Shown here: in pieces, positions 3,632-40,875 of the stretch
Layout: each line of letters begins with the position of its first letter
Numbering within the stretch: the stretch's first letter is position 1
DNA from: a virus
IMG/VR virus record: IMGVR_UViG_3300031456_000012
Location: 1 to 40,996 of that record
DNA length: 40,996 nt
Reading direction: 5' to 3' (one strand)
Position numbers and translations under genes: made by a program
The notes under the pieces: model-generated
Told to the model about the DNA's origin: nothing
The model's database searches: none
Seen by the model: the letters and a program-made list of their open reading frames with translations, nothing else

Positions 3632-4380
3632 TATAGGGACTCCGATGGGGGAGAGGGGGAAGGTTGGGCGATGCCTTCGGCCCGCGCTGGTCCGGCTTCG
3701 CCCCGAGCCGAATCTTCGTTCGTCTCGGCCATTCGGGGACCATCGCTATCGCGGAGCGTGGGCGCGTCTTCGTATCGGCTTCCGCGTTGCCCAGGCTCAT
3801 TGCTGGCGGTGCAGGACAGATTGTGATCAGCCCCGTGCGGACAGCGCTTGTTTCCGCACGTCTCGCACAGAAACATGCGCGACAGCCGATTGTGGAGCGG
3901 CGATCGAGCCTCTGGATGCGGGTCTCGCCTCACCAGTGCGCGGGTGCAATTATAGCAGGGGCAAGGATCCACATGGCGGTAGAAGGTTTTGCGTTCCCAG
4001 CCGAGACAGGAAAGCAGGTCGTCGGCGGGGTCTCGCGCGCCACGGAGAAACGACAGCATGGTCTCGTCGCATAGTCCGCAGCCGGCCGCGAACTGCGATG
4101 GCTGTCCCTTCACGGCGAAGCGCGCGCGAATCAGGGCTCGAAGTGCGTCAACATCTTGCCAGACCATCTCGTTGAGGAAGTCCACGACTGTCCAAGCGCC
4201 GTTGCGGTCGGCGAAGGTAGTGGCCTCGCCACTGAACCAGTCGATTAGGAACTGGCGGCGGCGTTCGATGCGCGCCGGATCGAAGCCCGCCAGGGCCGAG
4301 ACTGCCCTTGCAGGCTCGGTCGTAGACGAGAGCCGGTTTGGCGAAGCCACGCGCCCTGAATCTGTGGGCGAACCCATCAT
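3631..4380 (-). CDS. Putative DNA-binding Zn-finger protein, 249 aa
   Basis: The middle part (about 88-130) looks like a Cro-type helix-turn-helix (KGQPSQFAAGCGLCDETML). It is followed by Cys clusters CPCYNC (C140-C145) and CETCGNKRCPHGADH (C172-H186), then SNEPGQ, a motif set common in phage proteins of alphaproteobacteria. Function unknown. Both ends derive from dispersed structured repeats: residues about 9-37 (containing GFDPAR) from the copy at 4271-4356 and the tail (AEGIAQP) from the inverted copy at 3666-3754. ATG 4380 overlaps the upstream stop as ATGA. Confidence 0.75.
   Translation of the reverse strand: MMGSPTDSGRVASPNRLSSTTEPARAVSALAGFDPARIERRRQFLIDWFSGEATTFADRNGAWTVVDFLNEMVWQDVDALRALIRARFAVKGQPSQFAAGCGLCDETMLSFLRGARDPADDLLSCLGWERKTFYRHVDPCPCYNCTRALVRRDPHPEARSPLHNRLSRMFLCETCGNKRCPHGADHNLSCTASNEPGQRGSRYEDAPTLRDSDGPRMAETNEDSARGEAGPARAEGIAQPSPSPPSESL
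3666..3754 (+). repeat. Dispersed structured element, copy 1
   Basis: Begins GGGCGATGCCTTCGGCCC, 18 nt identical to the copy at 7199. Hairpin 1 is GCC-TTC-GGC at 3673-3681. The later part, containing CGTCTCGG and TATCGCGG, aligns with the other copies. It lies on the plus strand, antisense to the gene 3631-4380, and supplies the C-terminal tail of that protein. It faces the inverted copy at 4271-4356. Confidence 0.75.
4271..4356 (-). repeat. Dispersed structured element, copy 2
   Basis: On the minus strand, from GGGCGCG at 4356. Hairpin 1 is TGGC-TTC-GCCA, hairpin 2 has a GGCTC/GAGCC stem, and hairpin 3 is GCCC-TGGC-GGGC. It ends in GGGCTTCGATCC. Very close to the copy at 10578. It starts 24 nt downstream of the ATG at 4380 and encodes the N-terminal GFDPAR peptide of that gene. 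Confidence 0.8.
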
Positions 4381-4787
4381 GCCGCCCTCCCGGCTGCGTC
4401 GATCATGGCCTGCCAATCGCGAACAAGTTCAGCCGCCGCTGTCTCGCCTTGAAAATACTGTTCGACGCGGATCGGCGGAAGGAGCGCCAGCGCTCGCTTC
4501 GCAATGGCGACCTGCTGGCGCGTCGGCTGGGCCGCCATCGGCAGCGTCGCGGCCACCATTTCGGGCGTCGGTTCTCTTGGCACTATGACGTACCCGCCCT
4601 GCTCAATGGCGAGGATGGCGGCGCGGGCATCGCCGAGATACATTTTCGCGCACTCCTCCCAAGGCTCCATGTCCGACGGGATATTCCGGCGGGCCGCGTC
4701 GGATAGAATTTCTGCGGTCTGGCGCTCGCGCTCTGCCTCGCGCCCGTAAAGCGCCCTCGCCGCCAGTTCGATCATCTCGCTACTCAT
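4377..4787 (-). CDS. Hypothetical phage protein, 136 aa
   Basis: A soluble protein with the features of a recurrent but uncharacterised phage family: an N-terminal MIELAARALYG helix, a W-x-E-C-A-x-MYLGDARAAILAIEQGGYVIVP segment (residues about 43-70) and a TPEMV motif. No catalytic motif is apparent. ATG 4787 and the TGA of the upstream gene overlap as ATGA, and its own TGA overlaps the next ATG in the same way. Family recognition rests on the segment around YVIVPREPTPEMV; function unknown. Confidence 0.8.
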   Translation of the reverse strand: MSSEMIELAARALYGREAERERQTAEILSDAARRNIPSDMEPWEECAKMYLGDARAAILAIEQGGYVIVPREPTPEMVAATLPMAAQPTRQQVAIAKRALALLPPIRVEQYFQGETAAAELVRDWQAMIDAAGRAA

Positions 4788-4939
4788 GCCGCTTCACCTT
4801 CATGAACATGTTTGATCCACTCTCCTGTTTTGGGATCGCGGATGATCTCGACATCTCCGGGACGCTTTTCGGTACGCAGCTTGAGCCCTCCGATGGACTT
4901 GCGACCGACGCTGCGGAGATAGGTGCGGTAGCTACGCAT
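4784..4939 (-). CDS. Small basic protein, 51 aa
   Basis: Not recognised. A small basic protein beginning MRSYRTYLRSVGRKSIGGLK and ending KHVHEGEAA, with no membrane segment. The frame is open to 4975, but ATG 4939 overlaps the NinB stop codon by 8 nt (ATGCGTAG), matching the other junctions here. The Arg/Lys-rich N-terminus would suit nucleic acid binding, and it directly follows a recombination gene, but nothing specific can be claimed. Confidence 0.7.
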   Translation of the reverse strand: MRSYRTYLRSVGRKSIGGLKLRTEKRPGDVEIIRDPKTGEWIKHVHEGEAA

Positions 4940-5330
4940 GGGCTTCCTCCTTCGCAGGCTCAGACCACTCGACACCGTGCGCGGCGCCGTAGCTTCCGAT
5001 GAAGTCGATCAGGTCGATCATTTGGGACTTGCTCAGCCGTGAGGATCGGAAGCCGACCGGGAACGGCGCGCCGTCCAGCCCGGTCTCGAATTGCACCGCG
5101 TGGCCGCACGCCGACATAAACAGCGCCTTCCAGACTTCGGGGGTGTGCATCCTCCCGTCAGGCTTGGCCCGCGACACATCGGAGAGCATGGCCCAAAGCT
5201 TGTCGTTCTGCGCCAACGTCCGCTTCTCAGGACGGATGTTCACGATCGCTCGAGGCGGGGCCAGGTCGATCAGCCGGCGCGCCTCGCTACGGGCTTGGGG
5301 GCCGTAGAGGATGATGGTCTGGCCGGTCAT
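4932..5330 (-). CDS. ninB: NinB family recombination protein
   Basis: 132 aa, the usual NinB length. Recognised from RPEKRTLAQNDKLWAMLSDVS at about 33-53, HTPEVWKALFMSACGHAV, and the closing SKSQMIDLIDFIGSYGAAHGVEW. In lambda, NinB (Orf) binds single-stranded DNA and SSB and helps load recombinase, standing in for RecFOR. It lies in an operon with an ERF annealing protein and an HNH-like protein, a coherent recombination module. ATG 5330 overlaps the preceding stop as ATGA. Confidence 0.9.
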   Translation of the reverse strand: MTGQTIILYGPQARSEARRLIDLAPPRAIVNIRPEKRTLAQNDKLWAMLSDVSRAKPDGRMHTPEVWKALFMSACGHAVQFETGLDGAPFPVGFRSSRLSKSQMIDLIDFIGSYGAAHGVEWSEPAKEEAHA

Positions 5331-5710
5331 GGCGCTGCCTGCTTCCTTTCCCACGCGATCCGACCGGGCCAGACGTTCCAGTAAGCGGCGGCAAGCGTAT
5401 CGGCCCGGCGCCCGAGAATGTTCTTCTCGAACCACGGCCAGCCCTTTGAATGCTGAAGGCGGTGGCAGTTGTCCGAGAGGGGAATGTTCCAGCGGTCCGC
5501 TACCTTGCTCGCTGTGCCCTTTGCGTCCCGCGTCCCCTTGGCGGCATAATCGACATGCGCGGCCACCATCGGACCGCCGCAGTCCGCATTGGCCCTACAA
5601 CAGGCGCAGGGGCGCCCTCGGAGCCACTGGCGGAAGGCGTCTGCCACCTTCCACGCGGGGCGCGGCGCGTTTTGCTTGCGAGGCTTGATGGCGGAGCGGG
5701 CGAGCTTCAC
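5327..5710 (-). CDS. HNH-like / DUF968-type nuclease-related protein
   Basis: 127 aa with a metal-binding layout: CACC near 35-38, AAHVD at about 51, and DNCHRLQH at 80-87, followed by W-P-W-F. This Cys-Cys...His...Cys-His...His order resembles DUF968/HNH-like phage proteins that accompany recombination genes. It may nick or process recombination intermediates, but that is inferred. It starts with GTG at 5710, overlapping the upstream TGA as GTGA; the ORF upstream to 5755 is a shadow. Confidence 0.75.
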   Translation of the reverse strand: MKLARSAIKPRKQNAPRPAWKVADAFRQWLRGRPCACCRANADCGGPMVAAHVDYAAKGTRDAKGTASKVADRWNIPLSDNCHRLQHSKGWPWFEKNILGRRADTLAAAYWNVWPGRIAWERKQAAP

Positions 5711-5892
5711 GAAAACACCTCCGCAAACCGCTTCCGATAAGTCTGAGCGGTCCAATAGCAGACCCCGGCCTCATGGGCGGCGCGCTTGAGGCATTCGCCC
5801 TCACGGATGCGCTCAGCGACCCGCCTAGCCCGTTCCCGAGCCTCGCGCCGGTTGGCTTCCGCGCCAAGGCGTCCTCGTTCGGAGAGCGTCAC
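5707..5892 (-). CDS. Small helix-turn-helix protein, 61 aa
   Basis: A strongly basic helical N-terminus (about 1-30) is followed by ECLKRAAHEAGVCYWTAQTYRKRF, which has the spacing of a helix-turn-helix and resembles small phage transposase- or terminase-type HTH domains. GTG 5892 lies 4 nt after the stop of the ERF gene, and its TGA overlaps the next GTG. Probably a DNA-binding accessory of the recombination module; target unknown. Confidence 0.7.
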   Translation of the reverse strand: MTLSERGRLGAEANRREARERARRVAERIREGECLKRAAHEAGVCYWTAQTYRKRFAEVFS

Positions 5893-5896
5893 TTTT

Positions 5897-6631
5897 TCAG
5901 CCTCCGATCAGGGGGTTTTCGCGCCAGTCGCCATTGGCAGCATCGGCGGCGAGTTCGGTTTGCTTCCTCGCAATCACGGTGCCGAGCCCATCGTAAGGCT
6001 CGCCATCCTTCGATCCGCCGCTCCACCAATCGGGAAGGGCCTCTTGGAGCTGCTTGATCAGCGCCGTGTGGCTGGCGAGCAGCGCGTCCAGTTCGCCGGA
6101 ATCGCCGCAGCCTTCGACTTGGCGCCACAGCTCGCGGCCCTGCGTTTTCAGGTCCGTCTTGTTCTTCGCCGGGCCTTGCGGGAATGGGGCATCCTTCGCG
6201 CCGTTGCCGTTGCCGTTGCGATAGTCGTTCGCGGGCGCCGATTTGGACGCAGCGTTGCCGTCGTCGTCTTCCGCAGGCACGCCGAACGCGGTCATGAGAG
6301 CATAGCGGCGACAATAGGTGAGCGCGGAGCCGAAGCCCTGGGCATCCCGCTTGTTGGCCGGGACGTACAGCTTGCCGCAGCTCAGCGTCTCGCCGCCCTG
6401 GTGGTGGATCACCGTCTCGACGCAAACGCCGTCCTCCGCGACGTGCGAGGCTTGCGTGAAGAAGAGATCGTTCGCGATCAAGGCGGGCTTGATGGCATCG
6501 ATCACCGCGCCGAGATCGGCATATTTCGACTTGAAGTGCGGATTGGTCGCGGACTTGGTAGCGCCCTCGATTTCGGCGAATGCTCGCGCCATCGCGGCGG
6601 CGAGGGTGTCAGGCTTGGCAGCGGTGGCCAT
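5897..6631 (-). CDS. erf: ERF family single-strand annealing protein
   Basis: 244 aa. The ERF domain occupies about residues 10-130: MARAFAEIEGATKSATNPHFKSKYADL, then DAIKPALIANDLFFTQA and QGFGSALTYCRRYALMTAFG, all hallmark segments. ERF proteins anneal complementary single strands and support circularisation and recombination of phage DNA independently of RecA. The C-terminal third is a Gly/Asn-rich linker and a variable tail. ATG 6631 follows GGGAGA by seven bases. It is surrounded by NinB, HNH-like and HTH genes. Confidence 0.9.
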   Translation of the reverse strand: MATAAKPDTLAAAMARAFAEIEGATKSATNPHFKSKYADLGAVIDAIKPALIANDLFFTQASHVAEDGVCVETVIHHQGGETLSCGKLYVPANKRDAQGFGSALTYCRRYALMTAFGVPAEDDDGNAASKSAPANDYRNGNGNGAKDAPFPQGPAKNKTDLKTQGRELWRQVEGCGDSGELDALLASHTALIKQLQEALPDWWSGGSKDGEPYDGLGTVIARKQTELAADAANGDWRENPLIGG

Positions 6632-6632
6632 C

Positions 6633-6800
6633 TCAATGTCTCCCTTCGGTATCGAAAGCGCCCTGGTAGGCGGGCAGCAGGTCATCCATGTCGCACCGGC
6701 ATTTGACGCGAGGCTGGAAGCAGAACTGGCAGCCGTCTTCGATCATGTCGGGATCGAGAGGCTGCACGTCGCGGACGAAGGCGTGATCGTTCAGGTTCAC
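6633..6800 (-). CDS. Small Cys-rich protein, 55 aa
   Basis: A gene from GTG 6800 to TGA 6633, one base upstream of the ERF start. Residues 24-36 contain CQFC and, eight residues on, CRC, a probable zinc site, in the context GCQFCFQPRVKCRCDMDD. The GTG overlaps the upstream stop (GTGA), and the ERF ribosome site GGGAGA lies in its last codons, so it is embedded in the operon. Function unknown. Confidence 0.7.
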   Translation of the reverse strand: MNLNDHAFVRDVQPLDPDMIEDGCQFCFQPRVKCRCDMDDLLPAYQGAFDTEGRH

Positions 6801-6985
6801 GGCGCGTCTCCCTCAAATGCCGCGTCCATCTCCGCCTGAGACTTGAAGCCCCACGCGCGGAAATCGAGGCGGCGCGGGCGGATGGTGACGCGCGGCAGGT
6901 CGGTCAGGGCCGTCGCGGCGAAGTTCTCGACGCTCGGCTTTTCGCCAGCGACCAAGCGGTCCTGCCATTTGTCGAAGCCGCTCAT
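6797..6985 (-). CDS. Hypothetical protein, 62 aa
   Basis: Not recognised. Begins MSGFDKWQDRLVAGEKPSVE and has a positively charged central strand (VTIRPRRLDFRAWGFKSQAE). The frame is open to 7273, but that long form is a shadow of other genes; ATG 6985 overlaps the TGA of the upstream membrane-protein gene as ATGA. A cytoplasmic phage accessory protein of unknown role. Confidence 0.7.
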   Translation of the reverse strand: MSGFDKWQDRLVAGEKPSVENFAATALTDLPRVTIRPRRLDFRAWGFKSQAEMDAAFEGDAP

Positions 6986-7185
6986 GATAACAGCATCCAC
7001 ACAGCGAACAGGGCGATGAAGGCGAGGCCGGGTCCGTCGCGGAGAGCGGCGCGCAATGCGGTACTCACCGAAGGCCGAGACGCTCTTGCGGCTCGGGGCG
7101 CAGCCTGAGTGACGCGGTCGGCGAAGCCGATGCGCCCAGCCTTTGTGGCAGTCGAACGATATCGGAGGGCGGAGATGGGGGTCAT
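6982..7185 (-). CDS. Small membrane protein, 67 aa
   Basis: A basic N-terminal region of about 48 residues followed by a single C-terminal hydrophobic segment (PGLAFIALFAVWMLLS), a tail-anchored layout. ATG 7185 overlaps the stop of the upstream gene as ATGA, and its own TGA overlaps the next ATG. Function unknown. A small inner-membrane protein in the early operon could act in host takeover or superinfection exclusion, but there is no direct evidence. Confidence 0.65.
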   Translation of the reverse strand: MTPISALRYRSTATKAGRIGFADRVTQAAPRAARASRPSVSTALRAALRDGPGLAFIALFAVWMLLS

Positions 7186-7673
7186 GCCAGTGGACCTCGG
7201 GCGATGCCTTCGGCCCCGGCTGTCGCGGCTTCGCCGTCCAGCCCGTGCCGGTCTGGCCCCTCCGGGCTTCCATCCGTATCGCGGCTCGCTATTGCGTCGA
7301 GACAGGCGACAAAAATCTCGTCGTCGCCTAGGTGGAAATCCTTCCCCCCAAGCGCCCAGACGGCCCGTTGCTTAGCCACTTGAGCAACCCGCGCGGCGTG
7401 GAAGCACCATGCGCCAGCCTTGACGGCGCCCATTGCGCGCAGGGCGGCGATGGCCGCGTACGCGCCGCGAATATATGGCCAGCGGTCATTATCGGACAGC
7501 CGAAGCCAGACGCCCTCCTTGTCTCGGCAAGACGCAGCGGCAAGCCATAGCGCTCGCGCCACCATCTCCAGACCATCGCGCGAGGGATCGAAGCCGGAAC
7601 GGCCGAGACCTTCTTGGGGCTCGGCTTGCGAGAGCCCGGTGCCGTCAGGCACGCGCCCGGTTTCCGTGTTCAT
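7182..7673 (-). CDS. Hypothetical protein built around paired repeat elements, 163 aa
   Basis: The core (about residues 40-125: MVARALWLAAASCRDKEGVW...YAAIAALRAMGAVK) resembles uncharacterised phage helical proteins. The N-terminal part containing GRVPDGTGLSQAEPQEG and GFDPSR is encoded by the element copy at 7576-7658. The C-terminal part (about 135-163, ending AEGIARGP) is encoded by the inverted copy at 7199-7284. ATG 7673 follows AAGGA and overlaps the upstream TGA. The gene is literally bracketed by two facing copies; function unknown. Confidence 0.75.
   Translation of the reverse strand: MNTETGRVPDGTGLSQAEPQEGLGRSGFDPSRDGLEMVARALWLAAASCRDKEGVWLRLSDNDRWPYIRGAYAAIAALRAMGAVKAGAWCFHAARVAQVAKQRAVWALGGKDFHLGDDEIFVACLDAIASRDTDGSPEGPDRHGLDGEAATAGAEGIARGPLA
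7199..7284 (+). repeat. Dispersed structured element, copy 3
   Basis: Plus strand, from GGGCGATGCCTTCGGCCC (18 nt shared with copy 1). Hairpin 1 is GCC-TTC-GGC. Hairpin 2 has stem GGCTG/CAGCC, as in the copy at 40377. Hairpin 3 is CCC-CTCC-GGG, followed by CTTCCATCC and TATCGCGG. It is antisense to the 3' end of the gene 7182-7673 and inverted relative to copy 4. Confidence 0.8.
7576..7658 (-). repeat. Dispersed structured element, copy 4
   Basis: Minus strand, from GGGCGCG at 7658, 15 nt inside the ATG at 7673. Hairpin 1 is GTGCC-TGAC-GGCAC, hairpin 2 GGGCTC/GAGCCC, hairpin 3 GCC-GTTCC-GGC. It ends GGCTTCGATCCCTCGCGCGA. The pairing is kept with different bases from the other copies. Confidence 0.85.
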
Positions 7674-7870
7674 GCTGCTTTCCTTCTCTGCTTCGGAGCG
7701 AACTGCTCTTTGTGTTCGCGATCCTGTCGTTTCCCCATTTCGAGCATTGCCGCCGTTCGGATCAGCGATGCCCGATGCCTTGCGAACCATGTTGCATCGA
7801 CAGTCAGCCGATAGTGGTCATCGATCCATGTCGTGGCTGCGGCGATATCGGCAGGAGAGGGGCGGATCAT
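7670..7870 (-). CDS. Hypothetical protein, 66 aa
   Basis: Small, basic, helical protein starting MIRPSPADIAAATTWIDDHY with a Lys/Arg-rich C-terminus (FAPKQRRKAA). No known domain. The ORF extends upstream to 7990, but ATG 7870 overlaps the stop of the DUF551-like gene as ATGA and the upstream extension is arginine-rich shadow sequence. Its TGA overlaps the next ATG. Confidence 0.7.
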   Translation of the reverse strand: MIRPSPADIAAATTWIDDHYRLTVDATWFARHRASLIRTAAMLEMGKRQDREHKEQFAPKQRRKAA

Positions 7871-8142
7871 TTGCCGGACTCGGGTGGAGCGGGGAGAGGC
7901 ATCCAGTGGGTCAGGACAAACCCTCCGACTGGGTCCCACCCTCGATCGCCTCGTGTGTACCAACAGGCGTCTTCGCCTTTCCCGCGCCACTTGCAGTCAG
8001 GGATTCGGCCCCATGACCCATCAGCGGTCCAAAGGTCGATTTCCGTCCCATCCTTCGGCGCCGTTTCGATTGGCTGCCATTCGCGGTCCAGCACATTGGC
8101 CGCTTCGATTCCTGACGCGCGCGATTTCCGTGGTCCGTTCAC
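7867..8142 (-). CDS. DUF551-like protein, 91 aa
   Basis: Shows the W-x-PIETAPKDGTEIDLW motif at about 22-38, a central RIPDCKW, and the closing FVLTHWMPLPAPP, which define the DUF551-like family of small phage and prophage proteins of unknown function. Length (about 90 aa) is typical. It starts with GTG at 8142, overlapping the upstream TGA as GTGA. Family assignment is confident, function is not. Confidence 0.85.
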   Translation of the reverse strand: MNGPRKSRASGIEAANVLDREWQPIETAPKDGTEIDLWTADGSWGRIPDCKWRGKGEDACWYTRGDRGWDPVGGFVLTHWMPLPAPPESGK

Positions 8143-8564
8143 AACCCCTCCTGTTGGGAGTCGCCACGAGCGACGCGCGCAAGTCGGCGGAAGTTGTCAG
8201 CGAGGTCCTGAACGTCGCTCCCAAGGCGGTGAAACCATTCATCGCCCTCAGCAATCTGCGCGGCCGTGCCGAAGGCGTCAGCTTGGCCAGCAGAGAACGA
8301 CGGCAGCAGTCGAAGTGGAACGGAGAAAACGACGGCCTCTTCGTACGTCAGATCGGCGGCGCCAAGGACGGCCCAGTTCCCGTCGCCGTAGACGATCAGC
8401 GTCGGCTCGCCAGCATTGCGGCGGGCGATGTCAGCAAGCTCCGCGTTAGCGATGCCATGCTTGCACGAAGACGCCTCTTCGGCGGCTGAGGCCGTAGGCT
8501 GGCTGAGCGACGGCGCGTCAGCGCCGGAACGCCCTAAGTCCTTGATATCCCTCCCCATGGTCAT
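8139..8564 (-). CDS. Hypothetical protein, 141 aa
   Basis: Not recognised. The N-terminal 35 residues (containing GRSGADAPSLSQPTASAAEE) are encoded by a degenerate copy of the dispersed element. The remainder has a SKHGIANAELADIAR-type helix and a strand segment (EPTLIVYGDGNWAVLGA). Two ATGs are possible: 8564 (ATGA overlap with the upstream stop) and 8558. Junctions on both sides follow the NTGA pattern. Confidence 0.75.
   Translation of the reverse strand: MTMGRDIKDLGRSGADAPSLSQPTASAAEEASSCKHGIANAELADIARRNAGEPTLIVYGDGNWAVLGAADLTYEEAVVFSVPLRLLPSFSAGQADAFGTAAQIAEGDEWFHRLGSDVQDLADNFRRLARVARGDSQQEGL
8470..8534 (-). repeat. Dispersed structured element, copy 5 (degenerate)
   Basis: Minus strand, from GGGCG at 8534, 24-30 nt inside the start of the gene 8139-8564. 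Hairpin 1 is GGCGC-TGAC-GCGCC. It then shares a 17-nt run (GGCTGAGGCCGTAGGCT on the plus strand, 8484-8500) with the copy at 40377. The 3' end is poorly conserved. Confidence 0.65.
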
Positions 8565-9444: not shown

Positions 9445-9453
9445 GCGCTATTT

Positions 9454-10534: not shown

Positions 10535-10939
10535 ATGAGCGCGTCCGCACAGGGGAGGGGGATAGGCGGTGAAGGCCGGGCGCGCCCTTCGGGACAGGCT
10601 CTCGTCTCCGATGGAGCCCAAGAGGTCTCCACCCTGACGGGCTTCGATCCTTCGCGCGAAGTCAGCAACGACATCGTAGCGCGCCTGCATGGTCGCGCTC
10701 GCTTCAACCGCGACCATGCAGCGATCAAGGACGCGGAGATACAAGAGCAGGCGGCGTTGCAAATCGAGCGCTTGCGCGGCCAAATCGCGGCCGTTCGCTC
10801 CGTCATCCAGCGCGGCTATCCGGACAAAGGACTGCGGCGCGACCAAAGGTGCGAGCATGAGCGCTTCGGCTTCGAAGATTGTATGGGCTGCTACGACGAG
10901 GCGCTGTTGACGGCGCTCGGTTGCGATACGGGAAGCTGA
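10535..10939 (+). CDS. Hypothetical protein with repeat-derived N-terminus, 134 aa
   Basis: Residues about 15-42 (GRARPSGQALVSDG, then GFDPSR) are encoded by a copy of the dispersed element. The rest is a coiled-coil-like helix (AAIKDAEIQEQAALQIERLRGQI) followed by CEHERFGFEDCMGCYDEAL with three Cys and a His. No family recognised. The ribosome site at ATG 10535 is weak. It is the first gene of the rightward block after the regulatory gap 10398-10534, in which I see no convincing promoter. Confidence 0.7.
   Translation: MSASAQGRGIGGEGRARPSGQALVSDGAQEVSTLTGFDPSREVSNDIVARLHGRARFNRDHAAIKDAEIQEQAALQIERLRGQIAAVRSVIQRGYPDKGLRRDQRCEHERFGFEDCMGCYDEALLTALGCDTGS
10578..10659 (+). repeat. Dispersed structured element, copy 6
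   Basis: Plus strand, from GGGCG. Hairpin 1 is CCC-TTC-GGG (10585-10593). Hairpin 2 has stem GGCTC/GAGCC (10597-10601 and 10614-10618), with inner TCG/CGA around a four-base loop. Hairpin 3 is CCC-TGAC-GGG. It ends GGGCTTCGATCCTTCGCGCG. It shares the 16-mer GAGCCCAAGAGGTCTC with copy 8, inverted. Confidence 0.85.
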
Positions 10940-11452: not shown

Positions 11453-11879
11453 TCTATTCGGCCTCGCACGCAATTCCGTTTCAGCGCAGGAACGCATGTT
11501 CCGGCTTGCCGAGCGCGATCATGGCCTGTCGATCAGAGCGCTGCATCTCGAAACGCGCATCCCGAAAACCACCCTCCAAGGCTGGAAGGACGGGACGACA
11601 ATGCCAGCTTGGGCGCTCGGCGCGCTTGGGCGGGCAGGGGTGCCGGATCACCTGCTGAGCCTCGTTCTGCACCCCTTCGCGCGGCACATCGGAACGGACG
11701 ATAGCGGCGACGGCGCCCTTGACGAACTTGTACGCGAAACGGCCGGATTTACAAGCGATTACCTTGAGGCGACGGCCCCGGATAGCCCTGGCGGAACCAA
11801 CGTCATTCCCATGGAACACGCCAAGCTCGCCGAGCGGGCATTGCGGATCGAGTCGAAGGCTCGGGCGGTGCGGAAGTGA
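11445..11879 (+). CDS. CII-like phage transcription regulator
   Basis: Contains SVSAQERMFRLAERDHGLSI, then HLETRIPKTTLQGWKDGTTMPAWALGALGRAGVPDHLLSLVL, an HTH protein family frequent in alphaproteobacterial temperate phages, where it sits in the cII position downstream of cro. About 144 aa from GTG 11445; ATG 11409 in the same frame is an alternative. The GTG gives the 8-nt overlap typical of this genome. Probably a transcriptional activator or regulator of early genes; target unknown. Confidence 0.75.
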   Translation: MCNLFGLARNSVSAQERMFRLAERDHGLSIRALHLETRIPKTTLQGWKDGTTMPAWALGALGRAGVPDHLLSLVLHPFARHIGTDDSGDGALDELVRETAGFTSDYLEATAPDSPGGTNVIPMEHAKLAERALRIESKARAVRK

Positions 11880-12217
11880 GCGATCCCTTCGCCGAGCTGC
11901 CGCGAGGGCATTTCAAGGTGATCTATGCCGATCCGCCGTGGCGGTTCGAGACATGGAGCGGCACGGAAGTCGTTCAGGCGAGGGAGCTGGACGGTTTGGG
12001 GAAACGAGACAGAGAAATTCGAGGCGGCTGCGGCATGAAACACAAATGCTTCAGCGGCCGACATGTTCGGTGTGAAAACCCCTTCTGCTCGTGGTGGTAT
12101 GCCGCCGCAGCGGTCTTTCAGCCCCTGTTACGCCTTGCCGGTTTCACACTCTGCCTAAGTCGCTGTCGTTGGACCGCGAGCGGAGCGCGGCTCAGTCTTG
12201 CGTGGGTGGGCTGGTGA
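11876..12217 (+). CDS. MT-A70 adenine methylase remnant
   Basis: The first 27 residues (HFKVIYADPPWRFETW) carry the DPPW catalytic motif of MT-A70-type N6-adenine methyltransferases. Homologues run to about 200 residues with a long catalytic core and a C-terminal H-S-R-K-P-D segment. Here similarity stops after residue 27, and the rest (CFSGRHVRCENPFCSWWYAAA...) is unrelated. GTG 11876 overlaps the upstream stop, and the TGA overlaps the next GTG, so the remnant is still in a translated chain. It is unlikely to methylate DNA. Confidence 0.6.
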   Translation: MSDPFAELPRGHFKVIYADPPWRFETWSGTEVVQARELDGLGKRDREIRGGCGMKHKCFSGRHVRCENPFCSWWYAAAAVFQPLLRLAGFTLCLSRCRWTASGARLSLAWVGW

Positions 12218-12510
12218 CCGCGATAGCGACACTCACCCAGCGGGCGGAGACCGCGCAGACGGGCTCCGTTCATGAGTGGCGCGGGCCTCCAAAGGAGGCA
12301 TCGCCCGACCTGATCGATTACATCCATCTGGACGAGTCAATCGAGGAAGGCTGCTACCGTCATCGCATAGCCCGTAAGGTGCATGGGGAGGCTGTGAAGA
12401 GGGGACAAAGACGGGCGGCCCGCGAGCGGGCAACCTGCTTTCGTGCTTCGCGCCATGCCCTGCTTCGCGGTCATGGCCCTACGGGCTTCAATCAGGCGCA
12501 AATACGGTGA
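12214..12510 (+). CDS. Hypothetical basic protein, 98 aa
   Basis: Not recognised. Highly basic (RHRIARKVHGEAVKRGQRRAARERA), possibly nucleic-acid binding or a decayed gene. The first 30 residues are read through an antisense copy of the dispersed element. Kept as a gene only because both its GTG (GTGA overlap) and its TGA (overlap with GTG 12507) fit the operon; composition alone would not convince. Confidence 0.45.
   Translation: MTAIATLTQRAETAQTGSVHEWRGPPKEASPDLIDYIHLDESIEEGCYRHRIARKVHGEAVKRGQRRAARERATCFRASRHALLRGHGPTGFNQAQIR
12218..12306 (-). repeat. Dispersed structured element, copy 7
   Basis: Minus strand, from GGGCGAT at 12306. Hairpin 1 is GCCTCC-TTT-GGAGGC, six perfect pairs. It shares 17 nt (GACCGCGCAGACGGGCT on the plus strand, 12249-12265) with the copy at 38507 and ends TCGCTATCGCGG like copy 1. 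It faces copy 6 at a distance. Confidence 0.75.
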
Positions 12511-13211
12511 GCGCGCTCTACGGTTTCACGCTAGCCGACTTTGGCATTTACGATCAAGAAAGCGTGCTAATCGAGCATTGCTTCCGAGACGAACGCAACG
12601 GCACGGCGATCCTGTCGAAGCCCGCGAACGACAATGAAGAGCCTGAATTCCGGCACCTCCTTGTCTGGCGCTGGAATTCCGAGCTCCCGATCCTTTACGT
12701 CATCATGCTCAATCCGAGCGTGGCGCGGGCCTTCGTTGACGACCAGACCATGAAGAAGGTCATTCAGTTCGCGCGGCAGAACGGCTTCGGAGGTGTCGCC
12801 GTCGCCAACCTCTCGGACTGGCGCTCAACCAATCAGACGGTCGCAAAGAAGCGCGGCTGGCCAAAGAGCCGCCACTGTTCGCCGATCATCCGCGCCTTCA
12901 TTGAGCACGTCCCGGCAGGCGAGCGGCGCACGATCCTGCTCGCATGGGGAAACGGCGGGCCGCCGCTTTCGGGCTGGCTGACGGGCCGCTCAAAGTCGCC
13001 GAACGCCCGTTTCGTCACGTTGGGCATAACCAAGCCGGGCAGGCCCGAACATCCTTGCATGATCGGCTATGACCGGCGGTTTCAGGAAGCGGCTTCCTCC
13101 AGCGATAGCCGATTGAAGCGCGAAGCGGCGAGACCTCTTGGGCTCGATCCGCAGGACGAAAGCGGCGGTGCCGGAACGGCAATCGCCCAACCCTTTGGGA
13201 AGTCATCATAA
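12507..13211 (+). CDS. DUF1643 family protein, 234 aa
   Basis: Recognised from LLVWRWNSELPILYVIMLNPSVARAFVDDQT at about 50-80, GVAVANLSDWRSTN, ILLAWGNGG, and VTLGITKPGRPEHPC. DUF1643 proteins are found in phages and mobile elements; their biochemical role is not established. The last 35 residues (REAARPLGLDP, AIAQPFGKSS) come from an antisense copy of the dispersed element and lie outside the DUF. It starts with GTG at 12507 (GTGA) and links to rusA by TAATG. Confidence 0.85.
   Translation: MSALYGFTLADFGIYDQESVLIEHCFRDERNGTAILSKPANDNEEPEFRHLLVWRWNSELPILYVIMLNPSVARAFVDDQTMKKVIQFARQNGFGGVAVANLSDWRSTNQTVAKKRGWPKSRHCSPIIRAFIEHVPAGERRTILLAWGNGGPPLSGWLTGRSKSPNARFVTLGITKPGRPEHPCMIGYDRRFQEAASSSDSRLKREAARPLGLDPQDESGGAGTAIAQPFGKSS
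13113..13188 (-). repeat. Dispersed structured element, copy 8
   Basis: Minus strand, from GGGCGAT at 13188, 23 nt from the stop of the DUF1643 gene. Hairpin 1 is TGCCG-TTC-CGGCA. Hairpin 2 has stem CCGC/GCGG. Then comes GAGCCCAAGAGGTCTC (13130-13145), identical to copy 6 in opposite orientation. Confidence 0.75.
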
Positions 13212-13603
13212 TGCCTCCCCACCCAACCACCCCACACGCGATCGCCATTGAGCTTCCGTTTCCGGCGAAGGTGCTGTGGCCGAACGGCCGGACGCGCTCG
13301 CACATGTTCCGTCACCGCGAGTTCAAGAAGCACAAAGACTGGGCCTACTGGGCGGTCAAAGCCATTCTCCCGCCGTGCTTTCATCCCGTGCTCGAGAAGC
13401 GCGTTTCCTGGTCGGCCACCTTCTACCCAAAGACGCGCAACGTGATCGACAAGGACAACGCCGCCGCGAGCCTCAAGAGCTTCCAGGATGGAATCGCCCT
13501 CGCGCTCGGCATCAACGACACCCTGTTCGACAACCCCACGATCCATTTCGCCGAGCCCTCAAAGCCGGCCAAGGTCGTGATCCTGATCGGGGAGGCGAGC
13601 TGA
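13211..13603 (+). CDS. rusA: RusA family Holliday junction resolvase
   Basis: 130 aa, a typical RusA length. The acidic catalytic pattern is visible: VIDKDNAAASLKSFQDGIA at 79-95 (D80, D82, D93) followed by GINDTLF (D103). The N-terminus has the FPAKVLWPNGRT start of the fold. RusA enzymes resolve Holliday junctions as dimers, completing recombination begun by ERF and NinB. The ATG at 13211 forms TAATG with the preceding stop. Confidence 0.9.
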   Translation: MPPHPTTPHAIAIELPFPAKVLWPNGRTRSHMFRHREFKKHKDWAYWAVKAILPPCFHPVLEKRVSWSATFYPKTRNVIDKDNAAASLKSFQDGIALALGINDTLFDNPTIHFAEPSKPAKVVILIGEAS

Positions 13604-36607: not shown

Positions 36608-37071
36608 TGACGATCTACGCTTCCCTTCAGCTCGGATACTGGATCGCGCTTGCCGCGTTGACCACCTGTGTCCTGCTGAAGGGAAGCGGACCTATGAAAC
36701 GAACCGTCGCAACGATTTTCGCCGTCATGCTCATTCAATGGGCGATAGACGGATGGTGGCCGAGCGTCGAATGGGCGGCGATGATGATCGCGGTCGATAC
36801 GCTCGCCTGCGTCATAATCACCTGGCACCCGGCCGGGAGATGGCAGGCGATCACCGGCCTATCCTATATCCTCCAGATCGGCGTTCATCTTGGGCGCATA
36901 TTTAATGGGGACAACGCCGATGTAATAAGTTATTGGTGGGGGCTCTCTACTCTGGCAATACTACAATTGCTGTTGCTTGGGGGTTGGTGGCTTCATGGGC
37001 TGGGTCTCCATTTTGGCAGGGGCGGCAGTAATAAGGCTGTTGCTCAAGCGCGTAATCCGGGCGTGGACTAG
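36607..37071 (+). CDS. Multi-pass membrane protein, 154 aa
   Basis: About five hydrophobic segments: YWIALAALTTCVLL, TVATIFAVMLIQWAI, AAMMIAVDTLACVIIT, ITGLSYILQIGVHL and LSTLAILQLLLLGGWWL. Lies at the head of a run of membrane proteins, so a holin-like or membrane-remodelling role in lysis is plausible. Five segments is more than known holin classes (one to three). ATG 36607 overlaps the previous stop. Confidence 0.75.
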   Translation: MTIYASLQLGYWIALAALTTCVLLKGSGPMKRTVATIFAVMLIQWAIDGWWPSVEWAAMMIAVDTLACVIITWHPAGRWQAITGLSYILQIGVHLGRIFNGDNADVISYWWGLSTLAILQLLLLGGWWLHGLGLHFGRGGSNKAVAQARNPGVD

Positions 37072-37271
37072 TGACGGAGCGAAGGGGGAGCGCGCCGAGC
37101 GGATGGACTAGCCCGACCGCGATCCTCGCCACGCTCGCCCTGATATCCTCCGCCGGCTGGGCCTATGTCGGGATGACCCGCGACGACAGCAAAGAACTTC
37201 AGCGGCAAGTCAACGAACATACGCGCGACATCGCTGTGCTGCAAAGCCAGATGCGGCGGCTTGAGCGATGA
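37071..37271 (+). CDS. Small membrane-anchored coiled-coil protein, 66 aa
   Basis: One membrane helix (PTAILATLALISSAGWAYVG, about 15-34) followed by a charged helix (DDSKELQRQVNEHTRDIAVLQSQMRRLER). The N-in, C-out anchor plus periplasmic coiled coil resembles an inner-membrane spanin subunit or an antiholin. GTG 37071 shares its G with the previous TAG. Function inferred. Confidence 0.7.
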   Translation: MTERRGSAPSGWTSPTAILATLALISSAGWAYVGMTRDDSKELQRQVNEHTRDIAVLQSQMRRLER

Positions 37272-37645
37272 CCAAGGGCGTCTCCCTCCGCGATCACTTC
37301 GCTGTGCAGGTCAAATACGAGCGCGAGCTGCGCGAGGCTGACGACCGCAGGTATTCTGAGGTCCAGATCGAGCGGGCGCGGGCACTGTCCTATAAGGAAA
37401 TGGGCGATCAGAAGGCCCTTGAGCTGGCATACGCTCACCAGCAGTTCCTGAACGAAAAGGCCAACAACATTCGCACGCAGATCGACCGGGAGCGCGGCGA
37501 TCAGGTGAGCCGCGCCGAGTTCAAACCGATCGCTGACTTCATTGCCTCACAGCAGGGCGGGTCGAAGGTCTGGAACACCATCGTCGGCATTGCCTTGGTT
37601 CTGGCCGGCTTCGTCGTCGCGTGGCTGCTGAGAGGTGGAACATGA
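37268..37645 (+). CDS. Coiled-coil protein with C-terminal membrane anchor, 125 aa
   Basis: A long charged coiled coil (about 10-95: KYERELREADDRRYSEVQIERARAL...) ends in a single hydrophobic helix (TIVGIALVLAGFVVAWLL). A similar layout occurs in phage proteins annotated as holin-associated or spanin-like. ATG 37268 overlaps the preceding stop (ATGA) and its TGA overlaps the next ATG. Confidence 0.75.
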   Translation: MTKGVSLRDHFAVQVKYERELREADDRRYSEVQIERARALSYKEMGDQKALELAYAHQQFLNEKANNIRTQIDRERGDQVSRAEFKPIADFIASQQGGSKVWNTIVGIALVLAGFVVAWLLRGGT

Positions 37646-37917
37646 ATATCCAATGGCCCGACGCGCGTGGCTGGATCGGCTTCGGCTGCTTCCTGCTCGT
37701 GCTCGTCATCCTGGCGATGATCGCGTTCAAGTCGGACCTGCTCGAAAACGACGCCTTCCTGATCCTCGCCACGGCTATAGTCGTCACCGGCTGGGTCAAT
37801 GGGCCGGTAGGCTGGGCATATCAGGCAACGAAGGGCGGGGGCGAGGCCGCCGAGAGCAGCGCGCGCATTGCCGAAGCCGCTGCCGGCGTGGCGCAGGTTC
37901 AAGAGGTCAAGCGGTGA
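37642..37917 (+). CDS. Putative class II holin, 91 aa
   Basis: Two membrane helices, GFGCFLLVLVILAMIAF and DAFLILATAIVVTGWVNGPVGW, with a charged linker (KSDLLEND) and a soluble Ala/Glu tail. Size and topology fit class II holins, which form the lesion that triggers lysis. ATG 37642 overlaps the upstream stop. Confidence 0.75.
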   Translation: MNIQWPDARGWIGFGCFLLVLVILAMIAFKSDLLENDAFLILATAIVVTGWVNGPVGWAYQATKGGGEAAESSARIAEAAAGVAQVQEVKR

Positions 37918-38063
37918 CCTGCGCCCCACTCGCTCCCCTGACCGGCCCTGAGGCTGCTTTAGCGGCACTGTTGGCCCTGACCTTCTATGTTACATGCGCT
38001 TTGGTTTTTGATCGTAGGCTTAGAGCGGAGGTGGCGGGATGGTTTCGAGGATGGAGGGCATGA
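37914..38063 (+). CDS. Small membrane protein, 49 aa
   Basis: GTG 37914 overlaps the holin stop (GTGA). One hydrophobic helix (AALAALLALTFYVTCALVF) is followed by a basic, Trp-rich end (RRLRAEVAGWFRGWRA). May modulate the holin. Last gene of the late operon; 38064-38182 beyond it holds no gene and no clear terminator. Confidence 0.65.
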   Translation: MTCAPLAPLTGPEAALAALLALTFYVTCALVFDRRLRAEVAGWFRGWRA

Positions 38064-38159
38064 TGGGTGACGGCGGAAGCGGCGTCTAGCGCGCTCTACA
38101 AGAGCGGCAGAGGATTACAGGCTTAGGGCTCAGACCTTGAGAGAGGCGGTGGAGAGGCT

Positions 38160-38240
38160 GGGCGCATCCTTCGGACCGCGTGCTATGGCTTCGCCACGGA
38201 GCCAGCTTCGCCGTCTCCGCCCATCCGGGTAACGCCCGCT
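38160..38240 (+). repeat. Dispersed structured element, copy 9
   Basis: Plus strand, from GGGCGCA. Hairpin 1 is TCC-TTC-GGA (38167-38175). Inner stem of hairpin 2 is TGGC-TTC-GCCA, then GTCTCCGCCCATCCGGG aligning with the third hairpin. It is antisense to the 3' end of the gene 38183-38476 and faces copy 10. Confidence 0.7.
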
Positions 38241-38476
38241 TGCGCAGCGACCTCTCTTCCCAGCTCGGTCAGCTTCACCCTCGTCCCGTCTCGATCCTCT
38301 TCCTCGCTGAAGCCAGTTAGAAGGCCAGGAAACTTCTTGTTGATGAAGAACAGCGAAAAGGGGTTTGGCGACGGGCCCCATCTAACATCGACGCCGCGCT
38401 CTCCGCTCTTGGCGACCTCCACGAGCTGCTCAAGCTGGAACGAGTTAAGGGCTATAGCGATGTCTTCGGCGGTCAT
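38183..38476 (-). CDS. Hypothetical protein, 97 aa
   Basis: Not recognised. Helical N-terminus (TAEDIAIALNSFQLEQLVEVAKSG) and a winged-helix-like segment (FPGLLTGF, TRVKLTELGREVAAQAG) that suggests a small DNA-binding fold of the MarR type. The last 20 residues are read through copy 9 of the dispersed element. GGAG lies seven bases before ATG 38476. Confidence 0.7.
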   Translation of the reverse strand: MTAEDIAIALNSFQLEQLVEVAKSGERGVDVRWGPSPNPFSLFFINKKFPGLLTGFSEEEDRDGTRVKLTELGREVAAQAGVTRMGGDGEAGSVAKP

Positions 38477-38485
38477 AATCCACTC

Positions 38486-38623
38486 CTAGCGAAAGTCGGG
38501 CGAAACGCGAAGCGCCAAGACCGCGCAGACGGGCTTGGTCCGAAGGATGAGCACGCGGTGACGCTCGCCCCAAGCGAGCGGCATTCGCCCTGATCCTGTG
38601 GCCATCCTCCTTGTGTACCTCAT
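38486..38623 (-). CDS. Small repeat-derived ORF, 45 aa
   Basis: ATG 38623 overlaps the stop of the next upstream gene (ATGA). The product (MRYTRRMATGSGRMPLAWGE, then KPVCAVLALRVSPDFR) is mostly encoded by copy 10 of the dispersed element. It may be translated, but it is probably not a conserved functional protein. Confidence 0.4.
   Translation of the reverse strand: MRYTRRMATGSGRMPLAWGERHRVLILRTKPVCAVLALRVSPDFR
38507..38590 (-). repeat. Dispersed structured element, copy 10
   Basis: Minus strand, from GGGCG at 38590. Hairpin 1 is CGCTCGC-TTGGG-GCGAGCG, seven pairs. It shares 17 nt with copy 7 (GACCGCGCAGACGGGCT, plus strand 38519-38535) and ATCCTTCGGACC with copy 9. Together with copy 9 it brackets the gene 38183-38476. 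Confidence 0.75.
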
Positions 38624-38913
38624 GCCGATAGCTCGAGAAGCTGACGGGCCAGTTTCGGGATTGCTCGATCTGACCAGGCGCGTTCCCACGACCGAAAAAC
38701 GAGGCGCCCGTCCAGAACGGCGTCAAGCCGAGTGTAGCCGTTAGGCCAGGCGGGCGTCGGACCTTCGCGCAGCACCGACACGATGCCCGCGCGATGGACA
38801 TAGTCCCCCTCCCAGAAAGGACCGCGCGAGGTGCTGTTTCTCGTCAACCGCAGGAGTGGCCGGCTAAGCCCGCTGCGCGTTTCGTTATAGTCACCGCTTT
38901 TTGGTATCGTCAT
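38620..38913 (-). CDS. Hypothetical protein, 97 aa
   Basis: Not recognised. Begins MTIPKSGDYNETRSGLSRPL. Basic and aromatic with HRAGIVSVLREGPTPAWPNGYTRLD in the middle. GGGAGG lies six bases before ATG 38913, a strong ribosome site. First gene beyond attP in the leftward direction, so upon integration it lies at the prophage edge opposite the integrase and is a candidate lysogen-expressed gene. Confidence 0.7.
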   Translation of the reverse strand: MTIPKSGDYNETRSGLSRPLLRLTRNSTSRGPFWEGDYVHRAGIVSVLREGPTPAWPNGYTRLDAVLDGRLVFRSWERAWSDRAIPKLARQLLELSA

Positions 38914-39032
38914 GCGAACCTCCCGTGAACAGAATGTGCCGCCCGCTGTGCCGACGCGAACCGCTGCAAATCGCGCGTTCTGCGCGAACGGCGTTGACCG
39001 TAACGCGCGGAATCCCTAGGAAAACCGCCGCC

Positions 39033-39071
39033 GGAGACGTGGGTGAGTGGCTGAAACCAGCGGTTTGCTAA
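39033..39071 (+). other. attP: attP: 5' half of tRNA-Ser(GCU)
   Basis: Thirty-nine bases match tRNA-Ser(GCU) from base 1 to the end of the anticodon loop: acceptor strand GGAGACG (39033-39039), TG, D-stem GGT...ACC (39042-39044 and 39056-39058), A, anticodon stem GCGGT (39060-39064), loop TTGCTAA with anticodon GCT. Identity to a tRNA then stops. It lies 44 bp past the end of the integrase gene, the expected attP position. The rest of 38914-39114 holds no gene. Confidence 0.85.
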
Positions 39072-39114
39072 GTCTCTGGCGCGGCTCTTTCCCATCGTCA
39101 GAATATGGCAGATT

Positions 39115-40197
39115 TCAGCCATTTCCGCCACCTTTTTCGTCGGCAAACCGCTCGTCTTGTGCCGGATTTTGTGGCACCCCGTGAATCGCGGCGAGCTTTT
39201 CTTCCGGCGTCAGGTGAGCGAGATATCCTTCGGTCGTCTTGATCGACTTGTGCCCCAGGTTTAGCTGGAGGTCGTACAGGCTCCCGCGCCGCTCGCGCAG
39301 ATATTCGACGGCGTGAAGGTGGCGCAAATCGTGGAATCGGAAGCGGCGGAACGGGGCCTGATCCTGTGCCGCTTTCCGTGCCACGCGGCCGACCGTCGCG
39401 TAGAATTGCGCCGCGACGTTGGAAAAGCGCTCGCCGGCACCCCTCCAGAAAACGAATGGCGAACGGAGGAATTGCGGCTGGCGGTCGATGATCTCCAGCG
39501 CCTTGGTCGATAGTGGGACCTCGCGTACCGCCTTCCCCTTGGTCTCTTCCAGCGTGGCGGCCATGCGCTTGCGGTCCACGCGGTCATGCTCCAGCCCGGC
39601 GATCTCTTCCTCTCGCATCCCCGTCTCGCGGGCGAACTCGGCCATGTCGGTAAAGCGCGAGCCGATCGCCAGCACGGCCGCGATGCTGTCGGCCCGGGGA
39701 AGAATGATCTTGGCCTTGCGCTCCTTGAACCGGCTGCGGTCCATCATCCGCGCCGGATTTTCCTCGATCCATCCTTCGTCCACGCAATGGCCAAGCACGC
39801 TCGAGATGGCGGTAAGGTCGCGGCGAATCGTCGCGTTGGTCGTGCCGCACTTGCTCCGCGCCCGCACGATCTCCTTGAGCAGCGGGATGTCGATTTCGTG
39901 GATCTGCTTGCCGTCCAAATAGCGGCGCACCTGGCCAAGGCTCATAAGGTAGCGCTTGCCGGTTGAGGCCCCGATGCCAAGCTGCGTCCATGCGCCCGCC
40001 CATGAGACGACTGCGGCTTGCCACGACACGGGCTCGCCGGCGCCGAAATAAGCCCGGTCTTCCACCTGTTGCCGTAGCACCCTCATCCGGCGCTCCGCGA
40101 TTGCGAGAGAACGCGTTCGTAGGCTCTCTCGATACTCGATCCCCCGGACCTTGAAACGCGCCCAGTATATCCCATTCCTTTGATAGAGACCGCGCAT
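39115..40197 (-). CDS. int: Tyrosine recombinase / phage integrase
   Basis: 360 aa. N-terminal arm-binding region (GLYQRNGIYWARFKVRGIEYRESLRTRS), core-binding helical domain at about 55-150, catalytic domain with R195 (TGMREEEI), K near 220-222, H289-x-x-R292 in FHDLRHLH, H316 in LGHKSIKTTEGYL, and nucleophile Y325. It directs recombination between attP at 39033-39071 and the host tRNA-Ser gene. ATG 40197 overlaps the excisionase-like gene by 115 nt. Confidence 0.95.
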   Translation of the reverse strand: MRGLYQRNGIYWARFKVRGIEYRESLRTRSLAIAERRMRVLRQQVEDRAYFGAGEPVSWQAAVVSWAGAWTQLGIGASTGKRYLMSLGQVRRYLDGKQIHEIDIPLLKEIVRARSKCGTTNATIRRDLTAISSVLGHCVDEGWIEENPARMMDRSRFKERKAKIILPRADSIAAVLAIGSRFTDMAEFARETGMREEEIAGLEHDRVDRKRMAATLEETKGKAVREVPLSTKALEIIDRQPQFLRSPFVFWRGAGERFSNVAAQFYATVGRVARKAAQDQAPFRRFRFHDLRHLHAVEYLRERRGSLYDLQLNLGHKSIKTTEGYLAHLTPEEKLAAIHGVPQNPAQDERFADEKGGGNG

Positions 40198-40367
40198 AGG
40201 CGTCCTTTCGTGCGGAGTTGGCGCAGCTTGGCGATGTCGAACGTCCAGCGCCCAAACGGCTTTTCCGCGCCGGGTATTTCACCCCGAGCGGCCTTGTCTT
40301 GCAAGGTCCGAATGTCGAGACCCGTGATTAGGCTCGCTTCCCGGATTTTGCAGCGCTCAGCCGTCAT
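40083..40367 (-). CDS. Excisionase-like HTH protein, 94 aa
   Basis: MerR/AlpA-type winged helix: CKIREASLITGLDIRTLQDKAARGEIPGAEKPFGRWTFDIAKLRQL. The C-terminal GRVSRSGGSSIERAYERVL is also seen in relatives, so the 115-nt overlap with int is truly coding in both frames. Position directly before int suggests an excisionase or directionality factor. ATG 40367 overlaps the upstream stop by 11 nt and is chosen over 40472. A dispersed element ends 10 nt before it. Confidence 0.8.
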   Translation of the reverse strand: MTAERCKIREASLITGLDIRTLQDKAARGEIPGAEKPFGRWTFDIAKLRQLRTKGRLCAVSIKGMGYTGRVSRSGGSSIERAYERVLSQSRSAG

Positions 40368-40875
40368 GGCCCTCACCGCGCGAGGGATGCGACTCAGCGA
40401 AGCCCTCTTGGGCTGAGGCCGTAGGCTCGCAGCCCGGTCGGTTTGCCGACGCGCCCGAATAGGGTCGGTCACCCCCCGACATTATCCCCCTCCCCAGGCC
40501 TATCAGCGGGGTAATGCTATCTAGGGCTCGCCGCGCTATCTGTCCTCGATCCGCCGCTAGAATGGGGAGCGTGCCGGGGCCGTCCCTGAAAGCGAGCGCC
40601 GCATAAATGTCTTCACTGGCATAGAAGGACAGTGCATCTCGCGCCAATTTCAAGGAGCCCTCCGCTTCCTCCAGTATATCCTCTCGGCTATTCGAGGCGT
40701 TGAGGGCTGCATGGGCGCAAGCGGTTCCGAACACGATATGCGACTTGCTAATGCCGTCGATCACGTCATCGGGAAGCCGGTCCAGCATTTGCTTTCGCAC
40801 AGCCAGGGCGATGGCACGATACGGCTCAAGCTGCTTGTCCGCCAGCGCGTCGGCCAGTTCTTGCTCAAACGACAT
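40357..40875 (-). CDS. Hypothetical helical protein, 172 aa
   Basis: Helical protein with IVFGTACAHAALNASNSREDILEEAEGSLKLARDALSFYA in the middle; no family recognised. GAGAGG precedes ATG 40875, which is position 6 of the circle, so the gene continues the leftward operon across the join. The last 30 residues (containing ANRPGCEPTASAQEGFAESH) are encoded by copy 11 of the dispersed element. Confidence 0.8.
   Translation of the reverse strand: MSFEQELADALADKQLEPYRAIALAVRKQMLDRLPDDVIDGISKSHIVFGTACAHAALNASNSREDILEEAEGSLKLARDALSFYASEDIYAALAFRDGPGTLPILAADRGQIARRALDSITPLIGLGRGIMSGGDRPYSGASANRPGCEPTASAQEGFAESHPSRGEGHDG
40377..40456 (-). repeat. Dispersed structured element, copy 11
   Basis: Minus strand, from GGGCGCG at 40456. 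Hairpin 1 is GTCGG-CAAA-CCGAC. Hairpin 2 is GGGCTG/CAGCCC, a base-pair swap relative to copy 4 (GGGCTC/GAGCCC). It ends CATCCCTCGCGCG. It lies 10 nt upstream of the excisionase-like start codon. Confidence 0.8.

Follow-up and report, generated by a model that had tools for sequence, protein, structure and literature searches.

Branched DNA folds as candidate boundary sites for gene-module exchange in temperate phages and conjugative plasmids

In this work we describe a dispersed family of folded DNA segments of about 80-105 bp (hereafter the element), thirteen copies of which lie in the window, i.e. the whole stretch of DNA analysed here (IMG/VR record IMGVR_UViG_3300031456_000012, 40,996 nt). 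They look like an apparently undescribed family of structural markers at places where genes are swapped, and the reading that we prefer, with a probability of about 0.45, is that the element is a folded single-strand boundary site for exchanging gene modules in phages and plasmids. The window is a complete, circularly assembled temperate phage genome, since positions 1-127 recur at 40870-40996 as a 127-bp terminal direct repeat; its GC content is 63%. It also carries, at 1812-2627(-), a gene like phosphoadenosine phosphosulfate reductase (PHROG 424). The copies of the element and the recombination genes of the window are listed in Table 1.

Table 1. Copies of the element and recombination genes in the window. 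The type of a copy is given by the bases at the NN positions of helix P1.
Feature	Position	Strand	Remarks
Element, AT type	3666..3754	+	antisense in the 3' coding end of minus-strand gene 3631-4380
Element, CG type	4268..4356	-	N-terminal coding end of gene 3631-4380(-); convergent partner of 3666
Element, CA type	7049..7137	-	absent from the preliminary description
Element, AT type	7199..7284	+	antisense in the 3' coding end of gene 7182-7673(-)
Element, CG type	7576..7658	-	5 codons past the start of gene 7182-7673(-); partner of 7199
Element, TT type, divergent	8441..8534	-	29.7 bits; close to the start of ORF 8139-8564(-)
Element, CG type	10578..10659	+	N-terminal coding end of ORF 10535-10939(+); possible partner 12218
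Element, AT type	12218..12306	-	immediately 3' of the stop codon of ORF 11876-12217(+)
Element, GC at the NN position	12413..12501	+	just 5' of the GTG start of DUF1643 gene 12507-13211(+); absent from the preliminary description
Element, AT type	13100..13188	-	antisense in the 3' coding end of the DUF1643 gene; partner of 12413; top-scoring copy (77.9 bits)
Element, CA type	38160..38247	+	provides the stop codon of a small gene read from 38477(-)
Element, AA type	38487..38590	-	partner of 38160; 3' end merges into the Shine-Dalgarno sequence (TTTCGCTAGGAGTGGATTATG) for the gene that starts at 38477(-)
Element, CG type, without P6	40376..40456	-	within a small ORF upstream of the integrase
ERF-family single-strand annealing protein	5897..6685	-	candidate recombination partner
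NinB/Orf recombination mediator	4932..5435	-	5 of the 7 other phages with elements that were compared have homologues
RusA-like Holliday junction resolvase	13211..13603	+	adjoins the 12413/13188 pair of elements
Tyrosine integrase	39115..40197	-	temperate phage

The preliminary description had listed eleven copies, each beginning with GGGCG followed by a hairpin whose stem varies in sequence, and all eleven are present where it placed them. It had taken them for units of 65-90 bp with a single hairpin; the family is indeed dispersed, but the copies of the window measure 81-104 bp, and the hairpin (P2) is only one of six helices, so that most of the structure, P1 and four further helices, had been missed. 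In P1 (5 bp), GCGNN pairs with NNCGC about 80 nt downstream, with GG before it and usually CT closing the 3' side, and P3 encloses P4 (often absent), P5 and P6, P5 having the form NNNAG-C-C...G-T-CTNNN with a conserved C.T mismatch. P1 is closed in all eleven copies first noted, which had been chosen blind to their 3' side, with AT, CG, CA, AA or TT at NN. A covariance model, built from copies supplied by three pattern scans of IMG/VR, matches these eleven copies over its full length (positions 1-89, E value at most 0.002) and adds two; the next best match in the window has an E value of 0.87.

Watson-Crick pairing holds in 96% of cells across 25 helix pairs, and double substitutions abound. 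Among 144 distinct aligned copies, 90.9% of cells are paired (66.9% when shuffled, 30-43% when slid), two-sided changes occur in 26 of 29 pairs and the covariation score is 0.528 (0.138 shuffled, at most 0.063 slid), in an alignment that was fitted to the model and in which the figures for P1 and P5 are inflated, the first copies having been gathered with P1 and P5 patterns. We therefore put the weight on P2, P3, P4 and P6, which played no part in the selection of copies, and on the eleven copies of the window. Selection on a folded structure, which the preliminary description had proposed, is borne out by these controls, and neither lack of covariation nor restriction to this genome, either of which would have spoken against it, was found. 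An origin as chance GC-rich hairpins or as ordinary paralogous coding sequence, such as a GFDPSR motif, could appeal to the GC content of the genome and to the GFDPSR-like peptides that N-terminal copies of the CG type encode, but it is refuted by E values down to 1e-13, by the shuffled and slid controls, and by the various reading frames and differing peptides of the copies, and we consider its probability negligible. In one phage, L244, two near-identical copies (4687-4769 and 12169-12251) both have a CC/TT mismatch in P1; this is the only such pair noticed.

The preliminary description had left the choice between RNA and single-stranded DNA; the evidence favours a DNA structure, because G.T pairs are scarce, the loops are of DNA type and stability is strand-specific. 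G.T makes up 0.86% and A.C 0.49% of 3,490 helix cells, compared with 7.9% and 1.6% in tRNA stems from the same loci. In hairpins located independently of the covariance model, 349 of 515 triloops (68%) are TNC and 119 of 251 tetraloops (47%) are TNNC, compared with 4.6% and 4.9% in control segments, and UNCG tetraloops are absent (0 among the hairpins of the element). On the complementary strand these loops read c(GNA)g and c(GNNA)g, which are exceptionally stable DNA mini-hairpins. With DNA energies the complement is the more stable strand in 192 of 199 copies and the element strand in five (p = 1e-33), control segments showing no strand bias; RNA energies favour the complement much less. The folding strand is the template strand of the downstream gene. 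These properties bear on the idea that the element is a cis-acting RNA, acting in translation, processing or protein binding in phage early transcripts. Strong covariation would suit such an RNA, as would the 29 of 206 copies (8.4 expected at random) whose 3' end is followed within some 25 nt by a Shine-Dalgarno sequence and start; but G.T pairs are scarce, the loops are of DNA type, the non-transcribed strand is the one that folds better, a copy at the 3' end of a gene has antisense orientation in the mRNA and Rfam yields no match, so that we regard an RNA as very improbable.

The copies are arranged around genes. Among 138 adjacent pairs, 64 are convergent (+-), 38 are -+, 20 are ++ and 16 are -- (p = 4e-8 for the convergent excess), and convergent partners are typically 200-1,000 bp apart (51 of 64 under 1 kb). 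Each pair surrounds a single small gene or, at times, several (one to three); these genes are of unrelated kinds, among them DUF1643, N6/N4 methylase, HNH endonuclease and unknown genes. In one phage, G323, the integrase itself (3868-4317) lies inside a pair, 3480(+) and 5279(-). Phage copies usually lie inside coding ends, sense at gene starts and antisense at gene ends, and in many pairs one open frame spans both copies, starting a few codons before the first and stopping a few codons past the second. The frame is open through both copies in 33 of 49 short phage cassettes (67%), compared with 47% of random windows (p = 0.003); as this is only moderately above random windows, it is consistent with translational coupling but does not prove it. 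The element is not a conserved peptide, since its frames differ (18 copies in frame 0, 14 in frame 1 and two in frame 2), as do the encoded peptides. Nor is a cassette a composite of two copies of one element, its two copies being no more alike than random ones (65.4% versus 64.7%).

The preliminary description had called for a search of sphingomonad genomes and phages, and copies occur in both. With the covariance model, about 200 distinct copies were recovered from some 70 fetched loci, mostly IMG/VR phages together with prophages and a few bacterial genomes, and 170 matches in 62 loci have an E value of at most 0.01. Most complete or near-complete phage records of 38-50 kb that were examined carry 5-16 copies. 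Among 200 genomes from one Sphingomonadaceae family, 27 carry the element, in prophage-like clusters where there are several per genome, and among 398 Pseudomonadota genomes 21 do; searches that each covered more than 40 genomes were strictly filtered, so that the counts are lower bounds. BLAST adds 369 PLSDB plasmids, mostly conjugative, and a Microcystis phage. Most matches of the first pattern and of the genome scan are due to chance. A convergent pair occupies both coding ends of one gene in the Microcystis phage Mvi-Yong1342-1 (L481, 3001-3710); Rad52 and XerD genes are nearby. In a gammaproteobacterial metagenome bin (G008, COS4_bin_44) at least nine copies lie on nine contigs, several of which are alike over kilobases. 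Neither the window nor the element matches any Rfam covariance model, and ARAGORN finds nothing tRNA-like. A Massilia plasmid (L478) has, at 1389-1455(-), a sub-threshold match to the Bradyrhizobiaceae sRNA BjrC68 (36.8 bits, cut-off 39), 0.85 kb from a copy and without overlap.

Full-length copies are carried by the plasmids R46 (an IncN plasmid; three), pD18-1 (two) and pAOVO01 (three, identical), on one strand within each plasmid. They lie in leading regions, beside ssb, ardA or psiB genes, near or directly 3' of a stop codon, with the promoter and start of the next gene 500-700 bp further downstream. Leading regions enter the recipient as a single strand (PMC11541004), and from the gene order of R46 the transferred strand should be the complement of the element. 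In IncN plasmids the element is the upstream end of CUP (conserved upstream repeat) modules, and deletion, translocation and inversion in CUP plasmids have been attributed to recombination between CUP repeats (PMC3490853, PMC5027574, PMC5371602). In R46 (L482, 22078-26385) the three copies differ, while about 500 bp of CUP sequence downstream of them are nearly identical between two of the modules; the copies of R46 thus change, by divergence or replacement, separately from the remainder of the repeat.

As an alternative, the element could be a promoter or priming site that works on single strands, as Frpo/ssi sites and N4 virion-polymerase promoters do; the folded template strand would recruit RNA polymerase or primase on single-stranded or supercoiled DNA. 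In N4 early promoters a template-strand hairpin with a sheared G:A loop is extruded by supercoiling and stabilised by SSB (PMC4496689); the element likewise folds on the strand that is template for the downstream gene, its loops are of the c(GNA)g type, and its plasmid copies have a single orientation in regions that enter as single strands (PMC11541004). Against this, the 33 short phage cassettes with an open frame have the element inside that frame, typically past the start codon, a position of no use for a promoter; the consensus is GC-rich and without -35 and -10 motifs; and the visible IncN promoter, similar to TTGACT/TATAAT, lies about 500-600 bp beyond the element. We consider a promoter or primer function improbable.

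Several copies are near-identical in unrelated surroundings. The copy at 3666-3754 of the window is 100% identical over 89 bp to a copy in another phage (L267/L283), two copies within L244 are 97.6% identical, and at least ten further pairs at 90% identity or more behave alike; the flanks are unrelated on both sides. Such identity could come from gene conversion between existing copies instead of insertion. The chief competitor of the exchange reading is that the element is selfish and mobile but non-autonomous, resembling REPINs or MITEs, and that a putative structure-specific transposase copies it in trans; gene ends would then merely be the places where dense, translationally coupled operons tolerate insertion. 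Identical or near-identical copies at unrelated sites, sharp boundaries, inverted pairs as in REPINs and a spread over phages, plasmids, prophages and one cyanophage would all agree with it. However, no excess of direct repeats flanks the element, no Y1 transposase occurs in 19 carriers, a very young family of the same sequence is seen in no phage but L244, and tolerance leaves the orientation rule (sense at starts, antisense at ends) unexplained. We regard a selfish element as a serious but rather unlikely explanation.

The exchange reading draws on comparisons between phages. In the compared stretch of L241 and L250, the sole DNA shared outside the elements consists of 38-59-bp linkers of 98-100% identity; four of the six adjoin outer ends of elements in both phages, with unrelated genes enclosed, and several linkers of L273 and L277 show the same pattern. 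Eight phages yield 248 homology breakpoints, and 24 of these are at most 12 bp from an element edge (3.4 expected; maximum 15 in 2,000 shifts), a sevenfold excess over chance. Where no element exists, linkers are also conserved and genes also swapped. The phages G325 and G326 share about 15 linkers of 27-60 bp (88-100% identity), largely in the same order, separated by unrelated gene content and also without the element. Comparison of L241 3612-3911 with L250 950-1048 and L272 3153-3246 shows the loss of a gene body exactly in frame; the emptied slot, which has no elements, keeps a mini-ORF of 12 codons, MTDIVEEQRSDQ*, flanked by the conserved leader and tail. Given the linkers without elements and this slot, the element alone does not account for the swapping of genes in this region. 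No intact unit of a gene between two elements was seen at two unrelated places; the single gene family found in two cassettes (L252 and L288) has elements of different types, and linker-pattern searches for more slot occupants yielded L476 as their single new locus, which matches by chance and has no elements.

Rickettsia palindromic elements are palindromic repeats that lie in frame within genes, and the analogy drawn with them in the preliminary description holds for the in-frame copies inside genes; it leaves unaccounted for the convergent pairing, the conjugative plasmids and the multi-branched fold. Rickettsia elements are chromosomal and are not known to be paired around genes, and we know of no such branched fold among them. 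The attC sites of integrons resemble the element in keeping structure over sequence, in folding from the bottom strand and in delimiting small gene cassettes; by this analogy the element would have the conserved bottom-strand structure of attC, and if exchange is its role it would work like attC without being one. Unlike attC, which forms same-direction arrays, the element occurs most often in convergent pairs and has a multi-branched fold; core boxes GTTRRRY/RYYYAAC are at the ends of only 27 of 199 copies, and no integron integrase was seen with it. REP/REPIN sequences (RAYT) are also short, structured, dispersed repeats, often in inverted pairs, but the element is a multi-helix unit of 80-105 bp whose pairs enclose genes. 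The GTAG/GGAG foot is present at the 5' side of 18 of 199 copies and, on the other strand, at the 3' side of 11; the 39 of 199 at the 3' side are probably in part Shine-Dalgarno sequences. The carriers searched for a RAYT (Y1) transposase had none, although the host might encode one. With their defining marks absent, identities as attC, REP/RAYT or a MITE that makes target-site duplications were rejected.

CUP repeats, known to mediate rearrangement (PMC5027574, PMC5371602), share the element, which heads CUP-type modules in R46 (three copies) and pD18-1 (two). CUP is defined by a promoter and an ArdK site, whereas the element is a separate structural block, also present in phages without any CUP; a promoter-like sequence is visible in the plasmids, and phage copies lie directly at coding ends. 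Frpo/ssi and N4 hairpins have in common with the element a folded single-stranded DNA, a leading-region location and, for N4, extra-stable DNA loops; they differ in that the element sits inside coding ends with no promoter motif in its fold, the -35 and -10 motifs of the folded Frpo/ssi stem being absent from its consensus. The SAS/ESAS repeats of cluster K mycobacteriophages (PMC3203893) are likewise tied to phage gene starts and include inverted repeats, but they combine a sequence of 13 bp with 17-bp inverted repeats 5' of gene starts, are conserved in sequence and have one orientation; by inspection, their GGGATAGGAGCCC at starts is absent from the element consensus. As no Rfam, attC, REP/REPIN, SAS/ESAS or Frpo definition fits, we consider the family and its arrangement new; the main caveat is that in IncN plasmids the block forms part of a repeat that already has a name, CUP. 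The fold is undescribed in the literature searched, which did not cover the founding CUP paper (Delver and Belogurov, 1997); that paper may mention the block.

We propose that the complement of the element, when single-stranded or extruded by supercoiling, would fold into a branched hairpin in which P1 closes a junction bearing P2 and P3, P3 bears P4, P5 and P6, and c(GNA)g or c(GNNA)g loops cap the stems. The element would mark the edges of exchangeable modules, as a convergent pair in temperate phages and as one copy heading each module of plasmid leading regions. Most likely a protein or an annealing recombinase would recognise the folded strand, which would allow both the element and a gene flanked by two elements to be copied, or exchanged, from one slot or genome to another. 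The structure, its DNA nature and folding strand, the pairing, the near-identical copies in unrelated flanks and the homology breaks at element edges are shown here; a role of the fold as the substrate of exchange we infer. Phage single-strand annealing proteins acting with RusA are candidate enzymes. No recombinase is common to all carriers among those considered, ERF being found in 9 of 19, Y1 transposase in none of 19 and tyrosine integrase in 15 of 19. More tentatively still, the element may represent a new class of folded single-stranded DNA sites common to temperate phages and conjugative-plasmid leading regions, a universal adaptor moving gene modules between slots and replicons with its own putative structure-recognising recombination enzyme; this wider proposal is an arguable possibility rather than an expectation.

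The mosaicism of phages and plasmids is usually explained by random or homology-driven recombination. The element brackets accessory genes of phages and heads early-entry modules of resistance plasmids, and it would be a rare case in which covariation maintains a fold of DNA and not of RNA, with the loop alphabet and the strand bias as its hallmarks. If the exchange reading is true, this widespread element gives gene shuffling a defined, directly testable substrate.
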